Under the pieces are notes generated by a model. The model ran no database searches, was not told where the DNA came from, and saw only the letters and a list, made by a program, of their open reading frames with translations. From NCBI GenBank assembly GCA_937776645.1, contig CALMRI010000002.1, positions 62,001 through 126,000 on the forward strand: a stretch of 64,000 nucleotides of DNA, given 5' to 3'. Position numbers and translations under genes: made by a program. Positions 35,069 through 57,000 of this stretch are shown here, piece by piece (the stretch's first letter is position 1; each line of letters opens with the position of its first letter). The stretch comes from an uncultured Alphaproteobacteria bacterium (lineage in GTDB: Bacteria > Pseudomonadota > Alphaproteobacteria > Thalassobaculales > Thalassobaculaceae).

Positions 35069-36295
35069 CTAAATAATGCCGCGTTCGCTGAGGTCGGCGA
35101 TATCGGCTGCGCTATAGCCAAGCTCGCCCAGGACCTCGGCACTGTGCTCTCCAAGCTTCGGCGCGACACCAATTTTAGCCGGGGTTTCCGAAAACTGCCA
35201 GGGTGAACCATGGACCTTCAAGGTCTCGCCGAGCTCCGGGTATCGCTTCTCGGCGACATAGCCATTGGCGATAATGTTGGGGTCGTTCGAGGCCTCCAGC
35301 AGGGTGTTCACTGGGGCGGCGACCAGCCCGACACTGCGGATCGCTGCAACCCAGCGATCCCTGTCCCCGGTGGCGAAGAGCTCTGCCAGGGTGGCGAGAA
35401 TCAGGTCCTTTTTCTCGGCTGAAACCACCGCCAGCCCGAGATCGCTTGCACCGCGTTCTTCCAAGGCTTTCCAAAAACCCAATGCTTCCATCGCATCCTT
35501 CCAACCCCGGTGATCGAGTTGAAAAACCAGCGGCTTACCGTCGCCGTCGTTGAAGCTTGCGGCGATGCTCGGATATTCGCGGCTGCCATTGATCCGCACG
35601 CCGGTGATCGGGTTGGTGTCACGCCACATGGTCGTGGTCATAGTCCAGCCCATCAGCCGAAAAATGCTGCCAACCAACGAGGTTTCGACCTTTTGGCCAA
35701 TGCCGGTGTTCTTGGCGTAGAGCAGCGCCGCGAGCAGGCCGCCAAAGGTCAACATCGCGCAGGATTCATCGGCGACCGAAACCACACCGGTGCGCAACTG
35801 CTGGCCGGGAGCTGAATAAGCCTCGGCAATCCCTCCCAGCGCTTGGCCTATGGCATCGGTGCCCGGAAGATCCGCATCGGGCCCATGCGTCCCGTAGCCG
35901 GAGATCGAGGCATAAACCAGGGCTGGATTGACATTCTTCAACTCTTCGTAGCCAAAGCCATTTTTCTCGGCGGCGCCGGGCCGGAAATTTTGACCGAAGA
36001 CATCGGCGGTTCTGACCAGCTGATGGAGGATCGCCCGACCTTCCTCGGATTTGAGATTCAAGGTCACGCTTTTTACTCCGCGATTATTGGTCTCGAAGAA
36101 CGAACTGATCTTGCCCTTCAACTCACCGGCGGTTCGGTTGAAATCGCCGCTGCCAGGAAGTTCGATTTTGATCACCTCGGCACCAAGGTCGGCCATCAGC
36201 ATATACGGAACCGTCCCGGCCTGTGCGGTCGAGCACGCGACGGCCCTGATCCCAGTGAGCGGGCCAGGCAGTTCAGTTCCTGCTTGATCAGTCAT
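35069..36295 (-). CDS. CaiB/BaiF family (type III) CoA-transferase
   Basis: A 408-residue formyl-CoA-transferase-like enzyme that moves CoA between carboxylates. Family markers are the N-terminal PLTGIRAVAC and ADLGAEVIKIE, FFETNNRGVKSVTLNL, YASISGYG, and the catalytic Asp in DLPGTDAIGQALGG. The ATG at 36295 has AAGGA eight bases upstream. The length is normal and the frame intact. It lies among acyl-CoA dehydrogenase, LLM and TauD genes, so it may activate an organic acid for that catabolic set, but the acid cannot be named. Confidence 0.92.
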   Translation of the reverse strand: MTDQAGTELPGPLTGIRAVACSTAQAGTVPYMLMADLGAEVIKIELPGSGDFNRTAGELKGKISSFFETNNRGVKSVTLNLKSEEGRAILHQLVRTADVFGQNFRPGAAEKNGFGYEELKNVNPALVYASISGYGTHGPDADLPGTDAIGQALGGIAEAYSAPGQQLRTGVVSVADESCAMLTFGGLLAALLYAKNTGIGQKVETSLVGSIFRLMGWTMTTTMWRDTNPITGVRINGSREYPSIAASFNDGDGKPLVFQLDHRGWKDAMEALGFWKALEERGASDLGLAVVSAEKKDLILATLAELFATGDRDRWVAAIRSVGLVAAPVNTLLEASNDPNIIANGYVAEKRYPELGETLKVHGSPWQFSETPAKIGVAPKLGEHSAEVLGELGYSAADIADLSERGII

Positions 36296-36370
36296 GATGG
36301 TTGTCCTTCTCGTCGCGGATGGCGGTCTCGTATCGCATGCGGCTCCCCGGATTTGAAGAGGCGCGTGTCA

Positions 36371-36912
36371 TTAGGGCTCTAGACCGCTGACTTGGATCAT
36401 GCCACCGCCGATGCCGGCAACCGATGGCCGGGATGGGTATCCCAAATTGCCGGCGAAGCGCGCGGCCATCGCGGCAACGGATGCTGGGGTGAAGTCGGCG
36501 TCGCTGATTTTGTGTTCGCTGGCAAGCATTGCGTGTCTGGAAAGATTGTTGATGGTGCGGCCCCGGTCGAGGGCGCCTGGGCGTGCTCGACCAAAGGACC
36601 GGTGGATCGTCTGGCAAACCGAGAGCCGGCCGACAGTAGAGCATTGAGACCGTTCTGCATGGTCTCAACCGAAAACTCGGGAAGATCCTGGAAGTCGCTA
36701 GGGTAGCGCGCGCGCAGCTCGCCGAGCGCGGCGCCATGGGCGTCGGCGTCTGCCTGACGATAGCCGTCGGATAGTCGTTGCAACGCTCGCGAGACCGTCG
36801 CGAAATCATCTAGGGGCGACCCGGCCATGGCGCGTCTCATGATATGATTGCTATTTGTTCCGCAGACCTGCCCTTCGGAACGCTTGGCGGGCAGGATAGC
36901 GGGTCGGGCCAT
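36371..36912 (-). CDS. Uncharacterised protein, probably frameshifted
   Basis: I do not recognise this gene. From the ATG at 36912 the frame is open to 36397 and its first 95 residues look like a real small helical protein (DFATVSRALQRLSDGYRQ, ALGELRARYPSDFQDL, SVETMQNGLNALLSAG). The rest of that frame turns Pro/Thr-rich and unlikely. In another frame of the same strand, 36,600 to 36,371, the sequence is again protein-like (NNLSRHAMLASEHKISDAD, PASVAAMAARFAGNLGYPS) and ends at a TAA. The simplest reading is one gene of about 175 codons with an indel near 36,600. It is 24 bases upstream of the next minus-strand gene start region and may belong to that transcription unit. Confidence 0.45.
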
Positions 36913-36936: not shown

Positions 36937-38019
36937 TCAAGCCACGGCCGGCCAAGCCGAGGCATGATTTTGAAACGGCGTTGCGATCCGCTTGACGTCC
37001 TGAATTACCTCGGCGAGCGGCCCCGGTTCGGTATCCGTCGGAATAAACAGCGAAAGCGCATCGGCGAGACCGTCATAACGCTCGGCGATTTTGTCGGCGA
37101 CGACATCATGGGAGCCGACGATGGCGAATAATTCCAGCACCTCGTCTGGGATCTGCGCCGCCATCTCATCCCAGCGACCCTGGGCTGGAAACGGTCGTAA
37201 TTTCAGCCCAAGCTCCTCCAGGCCGTGCAGTCTCAGAACACTCCAATAGGCCCGGGTCGAGCAATAGAAGGCGATGCGGAAGCGTATATAGTCGCTCATC
37301 CTGGCGACGGCAGCTTCGTCTACTCCGGTTGCGAGAAAGCCGCCGGCGACCACCTCGATCTGGCTGCGATCCCGCGCGCTGCCCAGTCCACCGCCCCGCT
37401 TGGCACGTCGCAGCCCGGCCTCGATCTCCGGGACACAGACCTCGGCGATATGGCGTTGAGTGTTGAAGGGGTGCAGACGGACCCCGTTGGCGACCTCACC
37501 GGCTACTCTCAACATGGCTGGTCCGACCGCGGACATGGCGATCGGGATCGGCGGCAAGCCAAGCGGGCGCGGCGCGAAGTTCGGCGTCGTCAGGGTCAGC
37601 GTATAGTGGTCGCTGTGATAGTCGAGGGGTTCTTCAAATTCCCAGGCGCGCCAGACTGCCCGCACCGCCCCGATATAGTCCCGCATGCGGGGGGCCGGCG
37701 GGGTCCAGGCGATGCCGTAGCGCCGTTCGTTATGCCCTTTCACCTGCGAACCCAGACCGAGGTAGAAGCGACCCTTGGACGCCTTGTTCAAATCCCAGGC
37801 GGCATGAGCGGTGACGGTGGGGCTACGCGGAAAGGCGATCATCACGGCGGTGCCAATCTGCACCCGCTCCGTCGCCATGGCGGCGACGCTTAGCGCTGGG
37901 ATCGGACCATGGGCGTTCTCCAGTGCGACGACGCCATCGAACCCGGCGGCCTCGGCGGCCCTCGCCGTGGCATCGGCCAGGCGCAGATCGTCATTGGGAA
38001 TTTGATAAATCATCCGCAT
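36937..38019 (-). CDS. LLM class oxidoreductase, probable F420-type (TIGR03617-like)
   Basis: A 360-residue luciferase-like protein. It has IYQIPNDDL, AAGFDGVVALEN, RVQIGTAVMIAFPRSP, LNKASKGRFYLGLGSQVKGHN and PPIPIAMSAVGPAMLRVAGEV, the pattern of the subgroup often annotated as F420-dependent. The ATG at 38019 has AGGA about eight bases upstream. It is a clear paralogue of the gene at 49632-50681, sharing AFPRSP, WDL-NASKGRF, ANGVRLHPF/CDGVRLHPF and the IAFYCST/VAFYGST motif. It is flanked by a CaiB gene region and a TauD gene on the same strand. Whether the organism makes F420 cannot be seen here; FMN is possible. Confidence 0.88.
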   Translation of the reverse strand: MRMIYQIPNDDLRLADATARAAEAAGFDGVVALENAHGPIPALSVAAMATERVQIGTAVMIAFPRSPTVTAHAAWDLNKASKGRFYLGLGSQVKGHNERRYGIAWTPPAPRMRDYIGAVRAVWRAWEFEEPLDYHSDHYTLTLTTPNFAPRPLGLPPIPIAMSAVGPAMLRVAGEVANGVRLHPFNTQRHIAEVCVPEIEAGLRRAKRGGGLGSARDRSQIEVVAGGFLATGVDEAAVARMSDYIRFRIAFYCSTRAYWSVLRLHGLEELGLKLRPFPAQGRWDEMAAQIPDEVLELFAIVGSHDVVADKIAERYDGLADALSLFIPTDTEPGPLAEVIQDVKRIATPFQNHASAWPAVA

Positions 38020-38075: not shown

Positions 38076-38924
38076 TTACGGCAGGTCCCCAGCCTCGTCG
38101 AGACCGAAGGGCACGTCGCCGTTAATGGTGATCCGGTGCATGACCCGGCGGCATCCGGGATAGTCGTTCAAGGCCATATGCATGACTTGCCGGTTATCCC
38201 AGACAGCCAGGCTGCCGACTTCCCAACGCACCCGGCAGGTGAATTCGGGCTTGGTCGCGTGACGGATGAGATAGTTAATGATCGGCGTGCTCTCCTCGAC
38301 CGTCATGCAGTCTAGGTGGCGCATATTTTCCATCTCGTTGATGTAGAGGCCGGGGCGCCGGGTCTCGGGATGCACGCGGATAAGCGGGTGGACGGCCGGC
38401 TCCGAGGGTTTGTCCAGGTCGGTGACTTTGCCGCTCATCTTGCCGGACCGTTTGGCGGTTTTGTTATACTGGCTGAAGGTGCGGACATGACGTAGCATCG
38501 CCTTCATGCCGTCCGAGAGCGCCTCATACGCCGTCGGCATGCTGGCGAACATTGTGTCTCCACCGACGACCGGGACCACCTTGGCGTAGAGCATGGTCGC
38601 CATAGCGGGCGCCGGGGTGAAAATCTGATCAGTGTGCCAATGGGCGCCGAAACCGCCTTCCTCATTGGGTTCCTTGACGACCTCAATAATTTCCGGATGC
38701 TCAGGCAGGCCGGCGAGATAGGGGTGGGTGTGCAAATCATTCCAGCGCTTGGCGAAGGCGATCTGCTGGGCCGGGGTGATGTCCTGGTCCCGCAGGACGA
38801 TAACGCCGTGGTCGAGCAAGGCTTGGTGCACGACCACGAAAGTTGGGTCATCAATGGTCGCGACATCGACACCATGAATGTCGACGCCAAGCGTGCCGGC
38901 CAAGGGTAGGATTTCGATTGACAT
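38076..38924 (-). CDS. TauD/TfdA family 2-oxoglutarate dioxygenase (first paralogue)
   Basis: A 282-residue Fe(II)/2-oxoglutarate dioxygenase. Family start: LAGTLGVDIHGVD; the iron ligands are H and D in AHWHTDQIF and the distal H in NRQVMHMAL, with the co-substrate Arg in RRVMHRITI. RDQDITPAQQIAFAKR is the usual first-domain helix. It is divergent from the acyl-CoA dehydrogenase gene (141 bases between starts) and 56 bases upstream of the LLM gene on its own strand, so the two are likely co-transcribed. Members hydroxylate taurine, phenoxyacetates, sulfates, carnitine precursors and others; the substrate here is unknown. Confidence 0.92.
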   Translation of the reverse strand: MSIEILPLAGTLGVDIHGVDVATIDDPTFVVVHQALLDHGVIVLRDQDITPAQQIAFAKRWNDLHTHPYLAGLPEHPEIIEVVKEPNEEGGFGAHWHTDQIFTPAPAMATMLYAKVVPVVGGDTMFASMPTAYEALSDGMKAMLRHVRTFSQYNKTAKRSGKMSGKVTDLDKPSEPAVHPLIRVHPETRRPGLYINEMENMRHLDCMTVEESTPIINYLIRHATKPEFTCRVRWEVGSLAVWDNRQVMHMALNDYPGCRRVMHRITINGDVPFGLDEAGDLP

Positions 38925-39065
38925 GATGCGGCCCCGGTTTCAGTTCGCGAGCACCCATTGTAGGCGAGAAAAGCGCCGTGGCAGGATCAATGATATGATA
39001 ACCGCCGCGGCGCCTGTACCAACCTGTCTGCGGATCTCAATTGCAGCGATCGAGAGTCCAAAACC

Positions 39066-40232
39066 ATGAGCATCGATTTTACCCCCGAACAAATGCAGAT
39101 CCAGCAAAGCGTCACCCGCCTGTGCGCCGAGTTTGGCGATGAATATTGGTTGGAACGCGACCGGGACGAGAAATTTCCCGAGGATTTCTGTCAGGCGATC
39201 GCCGATAACGGCTATATGGGCATCGCCATGCCAGAAGAATACGGCGGGTCGGGGTTGGGGATTACCGAGGCCGCGATCCTGATGCAGGCGATATCACAAT
39301 CCGGCGCCGGCAATGGTGGGGTTTCCTCGGTCAGCCTTGGCATCTTCGGGCTTAACCCGGTGGTCCACTATGGCACCGAGGCGCAAAAATCCCGCATGCT
39401 GCCGCCGATCATCTGCCGCGATGACATTGCTTGTTTCGCGGTGACCGAAGCGGAAACCGGCCTTGATACCACGCGATTGAAGACCAAGGCGGTGCGGAAG
39501 AATGATCGCTATGTCGTGCATGGCCAAAAAGCTTGGACCACCACGGCCCAGGTGGCCAACAAGATCCTGCTGATCGCCCGAACCGCCGAGGAAAGCCCGA
39601 CCGGCAAGCCGATCGACGGGCTCTCGCTGTTTTACACCGACCTTGACCGCTCGAAGGTCGAAATCCGCAAGATCCCGAAGATGGGCCGGGAATGCGTCGA
39701 TTCGAACCTGGTGTTCTTCGACGGCATGGAGATCCCGTTCGAGGATCGGATCGGCGAGGAGGGCAAGGGGTTCCGATATCTGCTGCACGGCATCAACCCG
39801 GAACGTATCCTGATAGCCGCCGGATTGGTCGGGCTCGGCCGCGCGGCCTTGCACAAGGCCACCGAGTACGCCAAGGAACGGGTGGTGTTCGGGCGGCCGA
39901 TTGGGATGAACCAGGGTATCCAGCACCCGCTGGCGCAAAATTGGGCCGAGTTGGAGGCCGCCAACCTGATGGCCTTTCGCGCCGCCGACCTCTACGACCG
40001 GGGCGAAGACTGCGGGGCCATGGCCAATGCCGCTAAATATCTTGCCGGCGAGGCGGCCTTCAAGGCCTGTAACACCGCGATTATGACCCTTGGCGGCATG
40101 GGTTATGCCAAGGAATATCATGTCGAGCGCTATATGCGCGAAGCGTTGATCCACCGCATCGCGCCGATTACCCCGCACCTGATCCTCTGCTATATAGCCG
40201 AGAGGGTGCTGGGGTTGCCGAAGTCGTATTGA
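39066..40232 (+). CDS. Acyl-CoA dehydrogenase family protein
   Basis: A 388-residue FAD-dependent acyl-CoA dehydrogenase. It shows the N-terminal helical domain (FTPEQMQIQQSVTRLCAEF), the FAD-contacting CFAVTEAETGLDTT and QKAWTTTAQVANKILLIAR in the beta domain, and LGGMGYAKEYHVERYMREA in the C-terminal helical domain. The segment where many short-chain members have YEGT with the catalytic Glu reads RIAPITPHLI instead, as in a recognised subset of the family. The base may therefore be elsewhere or the reaction different. The frame is intact with a start at 39066. It heads the plus-strand block leading into the TauD array. Confidence 0.92.
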   Translation: MSIDFTPEQMQIQQSVTRLCAEFGDEYWLERDRDEKFPEDFCQAIADNGYMGIAMPEEYGGSGLGITEAAILMQAISQSGAGNGGVSSVSLGIFGLNPVVHYGTEAQKSRMLPPIICRDDIACFAVTEAETGLDTTRLKTKAVRKNDRYVVHGQKAWTTTAQVANKILLIARTAEESPTGKPIDGLSLFYTDLDRSKVEIRKIPKMGRECVDSNLVFFDGMEIPFEDRIGEEGKGFRYLLHGINPERILIAAGLVGLGRAALHKATEYAKERVVFGRPIGMNQGIQHPLAQNWAELEAANLMAFRAADLYDRGEDCGAMANAAKYLAGEAAFKACNTAIMTLGGMGYAKEYHVERYMREALIHRIAPITPHLILCYIAERVLGLPKSY

Positions 40233-40400
40233 TTGCATGCCCATGGACGGCGAGTTCGCCAAGGCCGTTCAAGCAAGGAGATGCTATCGATTGCGGGATT
40301 GGCCTGCTGGCGACGACGGACCTTTCCTGGCGGGTAATCCAGGGTAAACTATTCGACGTATCGCCCTGAACGAAATAAAGATGTCTCCGGGAGAGCGCTG

Positions 40401-41285
40401 ATGCCCCTCGATATTCGCCAGGTAGGCCCGTGTTTCGCCGGTGCGGTGGACGGCATTGATCTGCGTCAACCGCTGTCCAGCGCCGATGCCGAGGCGATCC
40501 ATGCCGGGATGGACAAATACGCCGTCCTGGTGTTTCGCGGCCAGGTATTGAGCCAGGAACAGCATCTCGCCTTCACCGCGGCTCTCGGCGAGATCGAGCA
40601 TTCCATCGGCGCCAGTTTGCGCGCGGCCAACGAGACGCGGGTGCCGACGACCTTCGCCGACGTGTCCAATCTGGGCAAGGATGACAAGCCGTATGATCGC
40701 GAGGACCGACGCCGGCTGTTTGCCATCGGCAACCGGCTCTGGCATTCCGACAGTTCGTTCAAGGTGGTGCCGGCCAAGTATTCGCTGTTGCACGCGCTCT
40801 CGATCCCGTCGAAGGGCGGCAATACCGAATTTGCCTATATGCCCGATGCCTATGACGCGCTCGACGCGGCGGTTAAGGTCGAGATCGGAGACTTGGTGTG
40901 TGAGCATTCCCAGATGTTTTCGCGCCAGCAGGTTGGGTTTTTTGATTTTACCGATGAGGAAAAGCAACGCTTCGCGCCGGTGCGCCAGAGGCTGGTGCGG
41001 ATCCATCCCTCGACCGGACGCAAGTCATTGTTTCTGGCCTCCCATGCCGGCTCGATCCTTGGTATGCCGATACCCGAGGCCCGTCTGCTGTTGCGGGACC
41101 TGATCGAACACGCGACCCATGAGCGCTTTGTCCATGTGCATCGCTGGCAGGTCGGCGATCTGGTGATCTGGGACAATCGCCAGACCATGCACCGGGCGCG
41201 GTCGTTCCCGGCGGACGAGCGCCGGGACCTGCGCCGCACGACGATCGTCGGCGATGGGCCAACGGTGCTCCAACAGGTCGCCTGA
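40401..41285 (+). CDS. TauD/TfdA family dioxygenase (second paralogue)
   Basis: A 294-residue 2-oxoglutarate dioxygenase, first of four tandem copies. GGGAGAG lies six bases before the ATG at 40401. Iron ligands: H and D in NRLWHSDSSF and the distal H in DNRQTMHRAR; the Arg for 2-oxoglutarate is in RRTTIVGD. The segment HSQMFSRQQVGFFDFTDEE and RLVRIHPSTGRKSLFLASHAG place it in the 2,4-D dioxygenase-like (TfdA) subgroup, and it is most like the broken copy at 43254-44148. The downstream copy begins 88 bases after its stop. Confidence 0.92.
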   Translation: MPLDIRQVGPCFAGAVDGIDLRQPLSSADAEAIHAGMDKYAVLVFRGQVLSQEQHLAFTAALGEIEHSIGASLRAANETRVPTTFADVSNLGKDDKPYDREDRRRLFAIGNRLWHSDSSFKVVPAKYSLLHALSIPSKGGNTEFAYMPDAYDALDAAVKVEIGDLVCEHSQMFSRQQVGFFDFTDEEKQRFAPVRQRLVRIHPSTGRKSLFLASHAGSILGMPIPEARLLLRDLIEHATHERFVHVHRWQVGDLVIWDNRQTMHRARSFPADERRDLRRTTIVGDGPTVLQQVA

Positions 41286-41373
41286 GGGTCCCGCCCAGAC
41301 AAACCTGCCGAGAGGAAAGGTGGGAAAATACTGCCGGAACCAATATTTCGCCGCAGCAGGAAAAGAGCTGATC

Positions 41374-42216
41374 ATGCAAATATCCAAGCTTAAGGACCAT
41401 ATCGGCGCCGAGGTGACGGGTATCGACCTGCGGCAGCCCATCAGTGAGGCAGACCGCCAAGCGCTCTATGACGCGCTGGTCGACAATGTCGCGCTGGTGA
41501 TCCGGGATCAAAAATTCGAGGCCGCCGATTTCCAAACTGCCGCCGAGCTGTTTGGCGAGGTGATGGAGGATCAGAACCGGATGTATCTGGCGCCGGGCGT
41601 GCCGATGGTCAGCGTACTTTCGAACCGCCATACAGATAGCAAGGGCAAGCCGGCAAAATTGGCCAAGAACGCCAGCTGGCATACCGATCACACCAACCAG
41701 GATCTGCCGCCGAAGATCACCAGCCTGTACGCCGTCGAGCTACCGGACCAGGGCGGCGGCACGGCGGTCTGTAACATGCGTGCTGCCTATGATGCGCTGC
41801 CGGCTGATATGCGTGAGCGGATCACGGGCATGAAAACCGAAAATACCCTGATTAGCAGCGCCCGCGCCGCGACGGGTAATCCCGACGTGGTCAAGGCGCG
41901 TGCGGCCCTCAATGGCAAGCTGGTGGTGCATCCACTGGTGCGGACCCATCCGGACAGCGGTTCGAAGGCGATCTGGTTCCATCAGAACAAGACCGAGACC
42001 GTCACTGGAATGGATCCGGTTGAAACCCAAACCTTCCTGACCGAATTGCTGGAAACCGCGATCCGCCCGGAATTCTCCTATCTGCATGAGTGGTGTTTGG
42101 GTGACATGCTGCTGATCGATAATCGTTCGGCGATGCACAAGGCCGGCTTCGATTTTGATTACAGCCAGCACCGCAAGCTTTTCCGTATTCTGGTCCGGGG
42201 CGACCGGCCGGTTTAA
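41374..42216 (+). CDS. TauD/TfdA family dioxygenase (third paralogue)
   Basis: A 280-residue protein. The ATG at 41374 is chosen because MQISKLKDHIGAEVTGIDL is the usual family N terminus and AGGAAAAGAG lies just upstream; the frame is open to 41254, overlapping the previous gene, without similarity. Iron ligands: H and D in ASWHTDHTNQD and the distal H in NRSAMHKAG, with Arg in RKLFRILVRGD. It is more TauD-like than the copies either side, differing in the loop before HTD and in the middle domain (PLVRTHPDSGSKAIWFHQN). Intact. Confidence 0.92.
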   Translation: MQISKLKDHIGAEVTGIDLRQPISEADRQALYDALVDNVALVIRDQKFEAADFQTAAELFGEVMEDQNRMYLAPGVPMVSVLSNRHTDSKGKPAKLAKNASWHTDHTNQDLPPKITSLYAVELPDQGGGTAVCNMRAAYDALPADMRERITGMKTENTLISSARAATGNPDVVKARAALNGKLVVHPLVRTHPDSGSKAIWFHQNKTETVTGMDPVETQTFLTELLETAIRPEFSYLHEWCLGDMLLIDNRSAMHKAGFDFDYSQHRKLFRILVRGDRPV

Positions 42217-42360
42217 CCGGCAGCGGGGGCAGCACCGGTATCGCTCGCCTCTCGTATTGTTAAACTTTTCCGGGTTAAATGGATGTTCGAAGGTTGTCGC
42301 GGCGAGAGAAGTCATTCCACGTTTTAATTGGTCATCGCGACGCGAAAGGGCTTTGTCAGA

Positions 42361-43218
42361 ATGCAGAATCGAATTCCTCAGAACGCCGGATTCCAATTCA
42401 GACCGTTGAGCGATCACATGGCGGCCGAAGTGACCGGCCTTGATCTGCGCCAACTGCTCGATACGCCGACCCGCAACGCGGTGCTCGAGGCGTTTCATGG
42501 TAATCAAATCCTGGTGTTCCGTGATCAGGATCTGACCAAGGACGAACAGATCGCCTTTACCGAGCAGTTTGGCACCTTGGAGCGTCACGCCCTGAGCAAC
42601 CGGGGCACCTCGGACTCGCCTTTCGTGCATCTCGTCACCAATCTCGACGTGGCGGGGCGCCCGACCGGCAAGCTCGGCTCGACCCGTTGGCATTCCGACA
42701 AGTCGTTTCGTCCGGCTCCGTCGATGGCGACGGTCCTGCACGCTAAAATCTTGCCTCCGAATGGCGGTGATACCTGTTTTGCCAATATGTACGCCGCCTA
42801 TGAGGCGTTGGATGAGGCCGAGAGGGGTGAGCTTGATGCACTGAAGGTCGTGCATAGCTGGGAGTTGTCGCGCGAGAATATCGACCGGAAACTCTCGGCT
42901 GAAGAGATAGCTGACGCACCGCCGCAGACCCATCCCCTGGCGCGGGTGCACCCCGAAACCGGCCGCAAGGGGCTGTTCATGGGCATGCATGCGTCGCACC
43001 TGGAAGGCATGGACATGGCCGAGGGCAGGGCGCGGATCGAGGCGCTGGAGGTGCATGCGACCCAGGAGCGCTTCACCTATCGTCACAACTGGCGGGTCGG
43101 TGACCTGCTGATGTGGGACAACCGGTGTCTGCTGCATCGCGCCGACCCGAATTTTGACGTGGCGTTGTACCCCCGGGTGCTGCACCGGACTTGTCTGCGC
43201 GGTACGCCGACCGTCTGA
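42361..43218 (+). CDS. TauD/TfdA family dioxygenase (fourth paralogue)
   Basis: A 285-residue protein. The ATG at 42361 puts FQFRPLSDHMAAEVTGLDL at the N terminus as expected; the upstream ribosome site is weak (AGGGC). Iron ligands: H and D in TRWHSDKSF and the distal H in NRCLLHRAD, with Arg in RVLHRTCLRG. The central part (HPLARVHPETGRKGLFMGMHASH) is typical of the TauD/TfdA family. It follows the third copy after 144 gene-free bases and precedes the broken fifth copy by 35 bases. Intact. Confidence 0.92.
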   Translation: MQNRIPQNAGFQFRPLSDHMAAEVTGLDLRQLLDTPTRNAVLEAFHGNQILVFRDQDLTKDEQIAFTEQFGTLERHALSNRGTSDSPFVHLVTNLDVAGRPTGKLGSTRWHSDKSFRPAPSMATVLHAKILPPNGGDTCFANMYAAYEALDEAERGELDALKVVHSWELSRENIDRKLSAEEIADAPPQTHPLARVHPETGRKGLFMGMHASHLEGMDMAEGRARIEALEVHATQERFTYRHNWRVGDLLMWDNRCLLHRADPNFDVALYPRVLHRTCLRGTPTV

Positions 43219-43253
43219 CGTATCAGAGCTGGGCAAGCCCGAGAGGCTGAACC

Positions 43254-44148
43254 ATGATGATCGCGGTGTCCCGGTGCCACCCAACATTTTTTGCCGAGAC
43301 CGGCGGGGTCGATCTGATCCTCCCGATGACGTCGAGTTGGTTTGGTGAGATCGATGTCGCGTTCAACGAACACGCGGTATTGCTGTTTCGTGATCAAAAC
43401 GTCACCGATGTTCAGCAGGTGGCATTCAGCGCATTATTTGGCTCGGTTTTCGTGGCAACGAAATACGCTTGGCGGAATGAAAAACAGCGGCTGCGGGCGG
43501 AGATGGCCGATATCTCTAATATCGACCACTCGGGCGAGCGGTTAGCGGCGGATGATCAACGTCGGTTGCATGTTCGTACCAATCAGCTTTGGCACACTGA
43601 TAACACCTTCAAACAGATCCCGGCGCGTTGTTCGCTGTTGTCGGCGCGGGAGCTTCCGGACAGCGGTGGCAACACCCAATTCGCCGATATGCGTGCCGCT
43701 TATGCCGTCTTGCCCGAGGTGCGCCGCCGCATGACCGACGGATTGATTGTCGAGCATAGTATTTTCTGTTCGCGAGAGAAGATGGGTTTTTCCGATTTCT
43801 CCGAAGCAACGCGGGCTGCATTGCCGCCGGTGCCCCAGGTGACTCGTGCGTCAGCACGCGGCGACTGGGTGGAACGCGCTGTATCTGGCCTCGCATGCCT
43901 CGCATGTCATTGGTTGGCCGATTGATGAGGGGCGACGGCTGCTGGCGGAATTGATGGATTTCGCTACTCAGCCGGCATTCGTGCATAAGCATGTCTGGCG
44001 CGAGGGGGATCTGATTGCCTGGGACAACCGCTGCACCATGCACCGGGCACTGCCTTATGACGACATGACCCAGCGTCGGGTGTTGTATCGAATCACGGTC
44101 TCGGACAAAATCAATTCGGTTGAGCGGGCGACCCAGAGGGTTGCTTAA
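43254..44148 (+). pseudogene. TauD/TfdA family dioxygenase (fifth paralogue), frameshifted
   Basis: The first frame, 43254-43925, carries ETGGVDL, FNEHAVLLFRDQNVTD, the iron ligands in NQLWHTDNTF, and the middle domain to ALPPVPQ. The rest of the family pattern continues in the next frame from about 43,846: RQHAATGWNALYLASHASH, DNRCTMHRAL with the distal iron His, and RVLYRITVSD, ending at 44148. One base too many around 43,833-43,850 explains the break. Near the 5' end the phrase expected between GVDL and EIDVAF (PDDVELVW) is found in the neighbouring frame, hinting at a pair of compensating indels there too. Its stop overlaps the stop of the convergent TauE gene. Confidence 0.85.
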
Positions 44149-44924
44149 CCGGCGAGGTAGTCCCGAACCGCGAGGGCGAGGGTCGCCACACCGATGACCG
44201 CAAGCAGAACCAAGGCGGCGTTGCGGAAGTGACGATGACCGCTACCGGAGAAGAACCGGGCGCCAAACCAAGTGCCGGCGACATACAGGGGGAACAATAG
44301 CAGACTGATCAGCACGACGTCGCGGGTGAATAGGCCGTGAAACCATAGCGGCAACAGCGAACAGAGCGACAGTGCGGCGACCGCGCCGATGACATTGGCG
44401 CGCTGTAATGCGGTGCTACCGGACCGTGAAAGTGCGATCGCCACCGCTGGCGGGCCGCCAACCCCGGCGGAACCCTGGACAAGGCCCGACGCTATCCCAA
44501 CGCCGACCAGCAAGCCGGTGCCAGAACCGCTCGGCAGCTTCCAGCCGCGATACAGCATCACCACCATCAACAACACAAAGACTGAAATCGCGATCTTCAT
44601 GATCTCCGGCGCGGTGGAAATCAGGAACCAGGTCCCGAACGGCGCGGCAACGAAGGTTGCCAGGCCGAAAGGCAGAACAAAGGAACGCTCTGAGACGCGG
44701 ATGGCGTTCGGCAACAGTTGAACCATCGGTGGCAGCCCGCTGAGAGTGGCGATAGGCACGGCGACGACCGGGCCGTAAACGATGCTCAGCACCATGACGA
44801 TGATCAGCGAGGCGCCGAATCCGACGAAACCGCGGACGAAGCCAGCCAGCAGCATCGTTCCGCCCACCAACGCGAGAACTGGGTAGGACTGGGCGCTGAT
44901 AAGACCCTCAAGAGCGGCGAGCAT
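44145..44924 (-). CDS. TauE/SafE family sulfite/anion exporter-like membrane protein
   Basis: A 259-residue inner-membrane protein with about eight hydrophobic segments in two repeats. The family pattern is seen in LAGFVRGFVGFGASLIIVMV near the N terminus and the matching IASGLVQGSAGVGGPPAVAIAL at the middle, with the G-rich GxxG loops. Known members export sulfite, sulfoacetate or other anions. It is convergent with the TauD array (the stops overlap by four bases), a suggestive but not decisive association with sulfonate breakdown. ATG 44924, no strong ribosome site. Confidence 0.9.
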   Translation of the reverse strand: MLAALEGLISAQSYPVLALVGGTMLLAGFVRGFVGFGASLIIVMVLSIVYGPVVAVPIATLSGLPPMVQLLPNAIRVSERSFVLPFGLATFVAAPFGTWFLISTAPEIMKIAISVFVLLMVVMLYRGWKLPSGSGTGLLVGVGIASGLVQGSAGVGGPPAVAIALSRSGSTALQRANVIGAVAALSLCSLLPLWFHGLFTRDVVLISLLLFPLYVAGTWFGARFFSGSGHRHFRNAALVLLAVIGVATLALAVRDYLAG

Positions 44925-46721: not shown

Positions 46722-48329
46722 ATGCGCGGAATGGTGGTTTGTCCACAGCCTCGGGCTGCCGACGTCGGCGCCGAGGTCATGGAACGTGGCGGTAACGCCT
46801 TCGATGCGGCCATCGCTACCGCTTTTGCGCAGATGGTGGTCGACCCGTTTATGTGCGGTCTTGGCGGCATGGGGACCTTGCAGTATTTTGACACGCGGGG
46901 CGCTGGCCACGGGATGATCGATTTTCACAACCGCGCCGGCGCCAAGGTCTCGCCCGGTATGTGGGAAGCTGACCTTGCCGGACGCTCCGAAATCAGCGGC
47001 TATACCCTGTTCGATGATTATCGCAGCGAGCTTGGCTATACCGCGATAATGACGCCAGGAACCGTTGCCGGATTTGCCGAGACCCATCGACGGCTGGCCA
47101 GTTGGGAATGGGCCGATCTGTTGGCGCCGGCAGCACGGTTGGCGCGCCAGGGCTACCCCTTGGCGGCGCATGTGTTGGATTTCTGGGCCCGACCCTGGGC
47201 GGCGGGGGTGCCGGATGGCATCACCCGGATCAAGGTTAGCCCGGCCTGCGCTGAGATTTATCTGCGCCCCGGCGATCGTCTTCCCGAGGTCGGCGAGATC
47301 ATCTGCAACCCGGACATGGCCGACACTATCGAGACGCTGGCACGCGATGGTGCCGGAAGCTTTTATACCGGGGCTCTGGGAGCCCGGATCGCCGAGGATA
47401 TTGGGGCCAATGGAGGGTTCGTCACCGTCGAAGACCTGGCGGGCTACCGGACTCGTCCGGGCAAGCCAGTTTTCGGGGAATACCGGGGGCTTACCGTGGC
47501 CTCAAACCCACCGCCAGGCAGTGGCGCGATCCTGATCCAGATGTTGCAGATTCTCGACAATTTCGATCTTGCCGGGCTCGGTCACGGCAGCGCCGCGAGC
47601 TTGCATTTGATCGCCTCGGCGATGGCCCTGGCGCACCATGACCGCGAGCAGAATCTGGCGGACCCAGACTTCACGACGGTTGATGTGGATTTCCTAGTTT
47701 CCAAGAAACGCGCGGCCGAGCACGCGGCGGTGATCCGCTCCGCAGCTCCCTTGCCCTCGACACCGCCGGCCCCGCCATCCTGCACCACCCACCTTTCGGT
47801 GCGTGACGAGACCGGTAACGCGGTGTCGGTCACCCATACCTTGGGAACCGGCAGCGGCGTCGTCACGCCGGGTCTCGGCTTCGTCTACAACAATTCAATG
47901 AAGCTGGCCGATCCGATCCCTGGCAAGCCGAACTCGATGATGCCAGGTAAGGCTAGGACCACAGGCATGGTGCCAACCATGCTGCTAAAGGATGGCGAGC
48001 CGGTGATTATCGTCGGGGCCTTGGGTGGCAGCGTCATCATCTCGGCGGTGCTGCAGACCATCCTCAACATCGTTGATTTCGGTATGTCACCGGTTGAGGC
48101 CACCGCTGTGCCGCGGATTCATTGCGAGGGCGCCGGTGTGCACGTCGAAGCCCGGGTCGAGAGCTCCCAAGTTGCCGGGCTGCAGGCGCTGGGCCACAAA
48201 GTGTTTCAATCCTCGCACAGCTACGATCCGGTGATGGCGCGGGCTCATGTCATCGCTAGAGATGACAAAGGTTGGCGCGGCGGCGCCGATCCACGCAGCG
48301 GCGGCGGCATCGCCATCGCCCGATGTTAG
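46722..48329 (+). CDS. Gamma-glutamyltransferase family protein (cytoplasmic type)
   Basis: A 535-residue Ntn-hydrolase. AAGGAG lies five bases before the ATG at 46722. The heavy-chain part has AADVGAEVMERGGNAFDAA and FMCGLGGMG. The autoprocessing site and nucleophile Thr are in SCTTHLSVRD, followed by the light-chain GTGSGVVTPGLGF and GALGGSVIISAVLQ. There is no signal peptide, unlike periplasmic Ggt, so it should be cytoplasmic like YwrD-type or cephalosporin-acylase-like members. It is the last gene of the isochorismatase-GAF operon, which suggests hydrolysis of an amide intermediate rather than glutathione salvage. Confidence 0.92.
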   Translation: MRGMVVCPQPRAADVGAEVMERGGNAFDAAIATAFAQMVVDPFMCGLGGMGTLQYFDTRGAGHGMIDFHNRAGAKVSPGMWEADLAGRSEISGYTLFDDYRSELGYTAIMTPGTVAGFAETHRRLASWEWADLLAPAARLARQGYPLAAHVLDFWARPWAAGVPDGITRIKVSPACAEIYLRPGDRLPEVGEIICNPDMADTIETLARDGAGSFYTGALGARIAEDIGANGGFVTVEDLAGYRTRPGKPVFGEYRGLTVASNPPPGSGAILIQMLQILDNFDLAGLGHGSAASLHLIASAMALAHHDREQNLADPDFTTVDVDFLVSKKRAAEHAAVIRSAAPLPSTPPAPPSCTTHLSVRDETGNAVSVTHTLGTGSGVVTPGLGFVYNNSMKLADPIPGKPNSMMPGKARTTGMVPTMLLKDGEPVIIVGALGGSVIISAVLQTILNIVDFGMSPVEATAVPRIHCEGAGVHVEARVESSQVAGLQALGHKVFQSSHSYDPVMARAHVIARDDKGWRGGADPRSGGGIAIARC

Positions 48330-49631: not shown

Positions 49632-50681
49632 ATGCAGGTAATGACGACCTTGCCGCAGGAGGACCTGAATGCGGTCCCAGCGGCGGCGCGGGCGGCCGAG
49701 CGTGATGGTTTCGACATGATCGCGACCATGGAAAATCGATACGAGCCGTTCATGCCGCTGGCGGTTTCAGCGATCTCCACCGACCGGATTCAGCTTGGTA
49801 CCGCCGTTGCGATCGCTTTTCCGCGTTCGCCGATGGTCGTCGCCAATACCGCTTGGGATCTGCAAAATGCGTCGAAGGGACGGTTCGTGCTTGGGCTCGG
49901 GCCGCAAATCAAGCCGCATAATGAAAAGCGGTTCTCGACACCCTGGTCGGCCCCGGCGCCGAGGCTGCGTGAATACGTCAAGGCGTTGCGAGCGATTTGG
50001 CGGTCGTGGGAGTTGGGGGGGGCACTGAAGTTTGCCGGTGATTTCTACACCTTCACGCTAATGACCCCGAATTTTGTCCCTGCCTCGACCCATCAACCGC
50101 CGGTGCCGATCACGATCGCAGCGGTTGGTCCGCACACCTTGAAGCTTGCTGGTGAGGTCTGTGACGGCGTTCGCCTGCACCCGTTTTGCACCCGCGCCTA
50201 TATAGAGGATGTGGCGATGCCACGCATCGAGACGGGGTTGGCTATGTCCGGCAAGCCGCGCCAGGAATTTCAGATAACCGGCGGCGGGTTCATCGCCACC
50301 GGCGCCACCGATGCAGAAGTCGAAACGGTAGCGGAATGGGTGCGCTATCGAGTGGCGTTCTATGGCTCGACGCCGAGTTATTGGCCTGTCTTCGAACATC
50401 ATGGGCTTGGCGACCTCGGGCGAAAACTGAACGCGATGACCAAGCAAGGCCAATGGGAGCAGATCGCCGGCGTAATCACGGATGATGTGCTGCGGCTGTT
50501 CGCCGCGATTGGTCGGTATGATGAGTTGGCGGATTTGGTGGCAGGTCGGTTCGGCGGCTGCACCGACATGGTGTATGCCAGTACCTCTTCGGATATTCAG
50601 CCAAAGATCCCGCCGGAGGTCCTTCAGGACATTCAACGCATCAGTACGCCCTTCAAAGGTTTTAAGGCCGCTTGGTCATAG
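49632..50681 (+). CDS. LLM class oxidoreductase, probable F420-type (TIGR03617-like)
   Basis: A 349-residue luciferase-like protein, paralogue of the gene at 36937-38019. Shared elements: MQVMTTLPQEDL, RDGFDMIATMENR, RIQLGTAVAIAFPRSP, LQNASKGRFVLGLGPQIKPHN, PVPITIAAVGPHTLKLAGEV and YRVAFYGSTPSYWPV. The ATG at 49632 has a GAGGGGCGAGG ribosome site. It lies 63 bases downstream of the BNR propeller gene and may be co-transcribed with it. Frame intact; substrate and flavin (FMN or F420) not determined. Confidence 0.88.
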   Translation: MQVMTTLPQEDLNAVPAAARAAERDGFDMIATMENRYEPFMPLAVSAISTDRIQLGTAVAIAFPRSPMVVANTAWDLQNASKGRFVLGLGPQIKPHNEKRFSTPWSAPAPRLREYVKALRAIWRSWELGGALKFAGDFYTFTLMTPNFVPASTHQPPVPITIAAVGPHTLKLAGEVCDGVRLHPFCTRAYIEDVAMPRIETGLAMSGKPRQEFQITGGGFIATGATDAEVETVAEWVRYRVAFYGSTPSYWPVFEHHGLGDLGRKLNAMTKQGQWEQIAGVITDDVLRLFAAIGRYDELADLVAGRFGGCTDMVYASTSSDIQPKIPPEVLQDIQRISTPFKGFKAAWS

Positions 50682-56202: not shown

Positions 56203-57000
56203 GTGCGTCAGAAACTCGGATCATCCGAGCGGCGGGCTTGCAAAACGATCGGCGTGGCACGGTCCACACAGCGCTATGAGGCATCCCCTGAAAATGATGA
56301 CAGCCTTCGGCTGGCTTTGATCAGATTGGCAAAGCAGTATGGCCGCTATGGTTACAGGAAGATTGCCGCGTTACTCCGCATTGAAGGCTGGCAAGTCAAT
56401 CACAAGAAGGTAGAGCGGCTGTGGAGGGAAGAGGGTCTCCAGATACCGCAACGTCACAGGAAGCGGAAGCGCCTCTATCACAAGGACAGCTCTATCATCC
56501 GGCTGCGCCCCAAATATCGGAACCATATCTGGAGCATAGATTTCGTCCATGACAAGCTGGCCAACGGCCGGCCCTATAAAATGTTGACCGTGCTGGATGA
56601 ATACACCCGCGAAGCTCTGTGCGTGGCCGTGAGGACTCGAATGGGCAATGCCGAGGTTCTGGAAGCCCTCTATCCGCTCTTCTTGAAACACGGCAGACCA
56701 GAGTTCATCAGATCAGACAATGGTCCTGAGTTCATCGCAGAGAACTTTCAGACCTGGCTTACCAAGGTTGGGATCAAGCCCATCCGTATCTATCCGGGGA
56801 GCCCCTGGGAGAACGGATACAACGAACGCTTCAACGGCACTCTGCGCAGGGAGGTTCTCAATGCAGAGTGGTTCACATCAATCAGACAGGCTCAAATCGT
56901 CATCGAAACTTGGCTGAAACAGTACAATCACATCCGCCCGCATCAGGCTCTGAACATGCGTCCACCGATGCCCGAGACCCTATCAGAAAGTGGTACATAG
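56203..57000 (+). CDS. IS3-family transposase OrfB (DDE integrase core)
   Basis: The frame is intact from GTG 56203, about 265 residues, and is most likely expressed by -1 frameshifting from OrfA. Pieces: the HTH_21 domain YGRYGYRKIAALLRIEGW and KKVERLWREEGLQIPQR, then the rve core with the DDE residues D in WSIDFVHD, D in IRSDNGPEF and E in YNERFNGTLRRE. The C terminus HIRPHQALNMRPP is standard for IS3 OrfB. All catalytic residues remain, so the element may be active. Confidence 0.93.
   Translation: MRQKLGSSERRACKTIGVARSTQRYEASPENDDSLRLALIRLAKQYGRYGYRKIAALLRIEGWQVNHKKVERLWREEGLQIPQRHRKRKRLYHKDSSIIRLRPKYRNHIWSIDFVHDKLANGRPYKMLTVLDEYTREALCVAVRTRMGNAEVLEALYPLFLKHGRPEFIRSDNGPEFIAENFQTWLTKVGIKPIRIYPGSPWENGYNERFNGTLRREVLNAEWFTSIRQAQIVIETWLKQYNHIRPHQALNMRPPMPETLSESGT

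Follow-up and report, generated by a model that had tools for sequence, protein, structure and literature searches.

The window analysed here is a 64,000-nt stretch (positions 62001-126000 of contig C2) from the draft genome of an uncultured and, by inference, probably marine alphaproteobacterium (3.52 Mb, 63 contigs, completeness 87%). It contains five TauD/TfdA (PF02668) genes, of which TauD1 to TauD4 lie in tandem after an acyl-CoA dehydrogenase (ACAD) gene, TauD0 is divergent, and a TauE/SafE-family gene is convergent with the array; an earlier note on this DNA had described this arrangement with every coordinate and strand correct. We consider it probable (roughly 70%) that several independent Fe(II)/2-oxoglutarate dioxygenases were gathered stepwise around an older module in a catabolic region. 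The observations that carry this reading are the separate ancestry of the genes, their block-wise synteny, the gene content, the intact ligands and the purifying selection. The enzymes belong to known kinds; it is the mode of cluster formation that is unusual.

The five proteins are only 26-38% identical to one another and occupy separate places in a maximum-likelihood tree (the array proteins, 24 other TauD proteins of the host, six reference enzymes and several orthologues), each being nearer to host dioxygenases encoded elsewhere or to outside enzymes. TauD0 lies on the TauD/RdpA side of the tree beside a host protein from contig C8; the solved structures nearest to it are those of (R)-phenoxypropionate dioxygenases and of TauD (1e-61 to 1e-50). 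TauD1 groups with AAD-2 (clade support 99/98; 4e-102 to the AAD-2 structure), a pair of host proteins from C50 and a further one from C2 at 27.8 kb. TauD2 stands alone on a long branch, with TauD as the nearest solved structure at 1e-32 only, while TauD3 groups with a host protein from C17 and is nearest to phenoxypropionate dioxygenases and AAD-2 (1e-49 to 1e-47). TauD4 falls inside the wider TfdA group, and its first part is nearest to AAD-2 (3e-39). The earlier note had held that the genes are not recent duplicates and that the second and the fifth are alike; both statements agree with the tree, in which the five form distinct subgroups and TauD1 and TauD4, both nearest to AAD-2/TfdA-type structures, fall in the TfdA group. 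On C50 the host has a second tandem pair of AAD-2-like dioxygenases (G000:C50:96512-98309; 53-54% identical to TauD1), and adjacent pairs resembling it are also present in G002:C122, G008:C36, G009:C19 and G024:C37.

Recent tandem duplication was rejected because in the tree each member has closer relatives than the other members. Local duplication with later divergence on the spot, the ordinary route to a tandem array, would suit the head-to-tail order of TauD1 to TauD4, with gaps of 35-144 bp, and such arrays are known in other TauD-rich genomes, but we regard it as highly improbable here, given the low identities, the lack of mutual closest relatives and the location of orthologues of single members elsewhere in other genomes. 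The comparison array is that of G244, a genome from a different family within the class (51 TauD matches), which has four same-strand PF02668 genes in a row (G244:C14:300222-303654); unlike the four of the window, these form one clade and represent a true tandem duplication.

All five proteins keep the iron ligands His/Asp/His (HxD...H) and the 2-oxoglutarate Thr/Arg, as the earlier note had said of the active-site motifs. TauD0, TauD1, TauD2 and TauD3 match PF02668 over their full length and above the cut-off (207, 194, 179 and 214 bits, respectively, in the Pfam search). Ratios of nonsynonymous to synonymous substitution (dN/dS) were obtained from comparisons with two genomes of the same genus, G002 (TauD0, TauD1 and TauD2) and G001 (TauD1, TauD2 and TauD3), and span 0.05-0.11 (0.11 for TauD0 against G002, 0.06-0.10 for TauD1, about 0.07 for TauD2 and 0.09 for TauD3); TauD0 to TauD3 are therefore maintained by purifying selection. 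The value for ACAD is 0.03.

TauD4 was described in the earlier note as broken, and one frameshift near 43840 does interrupt it, leaving pieces at 43254-43925 and 43846-44148 in different frames that match complementary positions of the PF02668 profile (6-162 and 185-267; 96 and 76 bits). The frameshift could be genuine or a metagenome assembly error. No orthologue of TauD4 was found in the relatives examined (best match 50%); among the genomes compared, the gene is found only in this one. Four more host TauD genes appear to be in pieces (G000:C2:7087-7909, C2:30791-31730, C43:26870-27672 and C50:126535-127239), and TauD4 is therefore not the sole damaged copy.

The whole array, TauD0 to TauD4, is present in no relative examined, and most of its joints are seen in one relative or another. 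G002 has the end of the CoA-transferase gene, a remnant of the LLM oxidoreductase gene, TauD0, ACAD, TauD1 and TauD2, at which the contig ends. The divergent TauD0-ACAD pair is kept (ACAD 98% identical in G002 and 87% in G009), and TauD0 orthologues are 94% identical in G002 and 53-63% in other genera. In G009, of a third genus, the gamma-glutamyltranspeptidase-like (GGT-like), TauD0, ACAD and CoA-transferase genes form one cluster without TauD1 to TauD3 (59-88% identical to their counterparts in the window; ∼74% for the CoA-transferase and 65% for the GGT-like gene). TauD0 is also clustered with the CoA-transferase gene in G008, G017, G024 and G028, where this ACAD does not adjoin. In G001, TauD1-TauD2 adjoin alaS, and on another contig TauD3 (76%) is directly convergent with TauE (70%), with no TauD4 between. 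Elsewhere, TauD3 orthologues (66-70%) are located apart in G024, G008 and G009, TauE orthologues of other genera are 49-59% identical, and in G019 and G010 TauE lies directly 3' of the TauD0 orthologue, in the same orientation. The only recurring pair is TauD1-TauD2, seen in G001 and G002 and, in another genus, in G008 and G017; a sulfatase and a CoA-transferase gene lie beside it in G008 and have counterparts in G017.

TauD2 orthologues (59-71% identical) are present in many Alpha- and Betaproteobacteria. A neighbourhood survey covered 80 named records, the majority of them metagenome-assembled Alphaproteobacteria and Betaproteobacteria; the orthologues mostly lack another TauD gene nearby, and no constant (operon) partner emerged across the 80 loci. 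The commonest neighbour, at 11 of the 80, is by eye what we take to be a tripartite-tricarboxylate (Bug-type) binding protein.

Under stepwise gathering, the old core would consist of TauD0 divergent from ACAD, together with the CoA-transferase and GGT-like genes. TauD1-TauD2, the TauD3-TauE block and TauD4 would have joined between ACAD and the GGT-like gene, and TauD4 would since have been lost through its frameshift, unless it is miscalled. Gathering in the host lineage, and not dispersal in the relatives, is the simplest reading of the direction of assembly. Several points weigh against this account. The full array could be the older state, dispersed in G001; the relatives compared are incomplete drafts, and the contig of G002 stops inside TauD2, so this genome may hold more of the array. 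In addition, the TauD2 clade has no close characterised relative among the enzymes compared, the substrates are all predicted from family membership, and promoter and terminator scans gave no signals beyond chance that would define an operon.

The host genome has ∼38 TauD genes, among the highest numbers in 289 genomes sampled from the class; among the genomes listed from that sample, only G095 and G244 have more first-look TauD candidates. Ten of the genes, some of them broken, are on the 130-kb contig that holds the window. When 38 TauD genes were placed at random in 3.52 Mb (20,000 trials), five starts never fell inside 5.2 kb (0/20,000), while four starts inside 2.9 kb and ten genes in some 130-kb stretch each arose in about 1 in 10,000 cases. 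TauD genes are thus clustered beyond chance in an unusually TauD-rich genome. The earlier note had left room for a chance cluster; the paralogues with which the five genes group do differ from gene to gene, but relatives conserve parts of the array, and it is therefore not a chance cluster. A related possibility, which we find rather doubtful, is neutral clustering in a TauD-rich and changeable region, with no shared function beyond general scavenging. The ten TauD genes of the contig and the state of the neighbouring LLM gene, which in the sister genome G002 has an internal deletion (equivalent to 37185-37942 of the window), would fit such a region, but the conserved TauD0-ACAD and TauD1-TauD2 blocks and the strong purifying selection would not.

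At the other extreme is a functional catabolic island, in which one family of sulfonates or ethers would be attacked by the array enzymes, serially or in parallel, and the sulfite released would be exported by TauE. The clustering far beyond chance, the position of TauE beside the TauD0 orthologue in G019 and G010, the retention of the TauD1-TauD2 pair in two genera and the sulfatase and CoA-transferase genes accompanying that pair all point this way. We nevertheless consider the island unlikely, because the sub-blocks are separate in relatives, TauD2 mostly occurs without a nearby TauD gene, TauD4 is broken, TauA was not found in the host genome (87% complete draft), and the taurine contacts are partly kept in TauD0 and not together in the other four. 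The catabolic setting proposed in the earlier note is borne out, and its observations were confirmed, but its interpretation is supported only in part: serial oxidation by all five enzymes does not agree with the separation of the sub-blocks in G001 and G009 or with the TauD2 survey.

Stepwise gathering, to which we return, would leave each intact enzyme with its own small organic substrate. TauD, TfdA and AtsK are established to hydroxylate a carbon that adjoins a leaving group, and from the family this is most likely the chemistry of the array enzymes as well. With O2 and 2-oxoglutarate, each would hydroxylate the carbon that bears the leaving group (sulfonate, ether or ester oxygen), and the product would split to an aldehyde or ketone and the leaving group.

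For TauD0, the resemblance is to the TauD of E. coli and P. putida with TauE export (37-39% identity, the TauD/RdpA side of the family, TauE close by), although there is no tauABC beside TauD0. Its identification as taurine dioxygenase proper was rejected, since it scores 222 bits with NF007104 against an equivalog cut-off of 313; TauD1 to TauD3 score 143-153 bits, also below the cut-off. None of the five proteins keeps all four taurine contacts (His70, Tyr73, Asn95 and Arg270, E. coli numbering); TauD0 keeps His70 and Arg270 only, with Leu and Gly in place of Tyr73 and Asn95. For a sulfonate role, one of those suggested in the earlier note, the support is indirect: the partly kept contacts and the failure to find TauA speak against it, but the TauD0 orthologues that adjoin TauE in two related genomes still make a sulfonate plausible as the predicted substrate of TauD0. 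TauD0 would then release sulfite, and the TauE/SafE protein, a member of the sulfite exporter family by its profile match, would export it. A carnitine-type (BBOX) function, also raised in the earlier note, was rejected, since the NCBIfam model reaches at most 19.5 bits, and for TauD1 only.

TauD1 is 55% identical over its full length to AAD-2/TfdA-alpha, a 2-oxoglutarate-dependent dioxygenase of 2,4-dichlorophenoxyacetic acid (2,4-D; PDB 5bke), but of the window genes that were scanned, none was recognised as a chlorophenol or chlorocatechol gene. TfdA-alpha of Bradyrhizobium RD5-C2 has weak phenoxyacetate activity in vitro, and its deletion had no measurable effect on phenoxyacetate breakdown in the cell (PMC8446748); herbicides are therefore not likely to be the natural substrate. 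The TfdA of pJP4 is 42% identical to TauD4, 41% to TauD1 and 38% to TauD3, and TauD1 and TauD4 fall in its tree group, but TauD4 is frameshifted and no tfd gene set was seen at the window.

Within the array, gene order suggests a functional pair for TauD1-TauD2 only, and these two may act in one pathway. That they constitute a pathway of two dioxygenases not described before, acting on a natural ether or sulfonated compound that would be the real substrate of the AAD-2/TfdA-alpha enzymes, is a speculative and quite unlikely proposal, for which the adjacency of the pair in two or more probably marine alphaproteobacterial genera can be cited. Annotation from sequence alone often labels TauD-family enzymes as degraders of taurine or 2,4-D. 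Among the papers listed in a literature search, none dealt directly with the expansion of TauD families in Alphaproteobacteria of marine origin. The cluster probably illustrates the block-by-block gathering of such enzymes in one bacterium, and it cautions against taking any co-located set for one pathway; the conserved pair and the conserved core (TauD0, ACAD, CoA-transferase and transpeptidase-like gene) offer testable substrates. The features of the region are collected in the table.

Table. Genes of the dioxygenase region, in window coordinates, with the evidence for each assignment.
Feature	Coordinates	Strand	Evidence
CoA-transferase family III (CaiB/BaiF type)	35069..36295	-	PF02515 284 bits; synteny
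LLM (F420-dependent class) oxidoreductase, TIGR03617-type	36937..38019	-	NCBIfam 350 bits, cut-off 278
TauD0, dioxygenase, TauD/RdpA side of family	38076..38924	-	PF02668, tree, orthologues, dN/dS
Acyl-CoA dehydrogenase (ACAD), divergent from TauD0	39066..40232	+	Profile match, synteny, dN/dS
TauD1, AAD-2/TfdA-alpha-like dioxygenase	40401..41285	+	55% to AAD-2 (PDB 5bke), tree
TauD2, dioxygenase	41374..42216	+	PF02668, orthologues, tree
TauD3, dioxygenase	42361..43218	+	PF02668, orthologues, tree
TauD4, TfdA-group dioxygenase, frameshifted	43254..44148	+	PF02668 in two pieces, tree
TauE/SafE-family permease, convergent with array	44145..44924	-	PF01925 68.6 bits, cut-off 32.6
GGT-like gene, far edge of older module	46722..48329	+	PF01019 412 bits

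Between the CoA-transferase and LLM genes, positions 36288-36912 hold two overlapping reading frames that matched no Pfam family; a longer version of this stretch is present in G002. No RNA elements exceeded the Rfam thresholds in the window. A second TIGR03617-type F420-class oxidoreductase gene (49632-50681) flanks the region together with the one listed in the table. CofE, over its cut-off, is encoded at G000:C38:28364-29110, and the host therefore probably makes F420. Approximately 12 kb downstream of the array, at 56203-57000, is an IS3-type integrase gene (rve, HTH_21).

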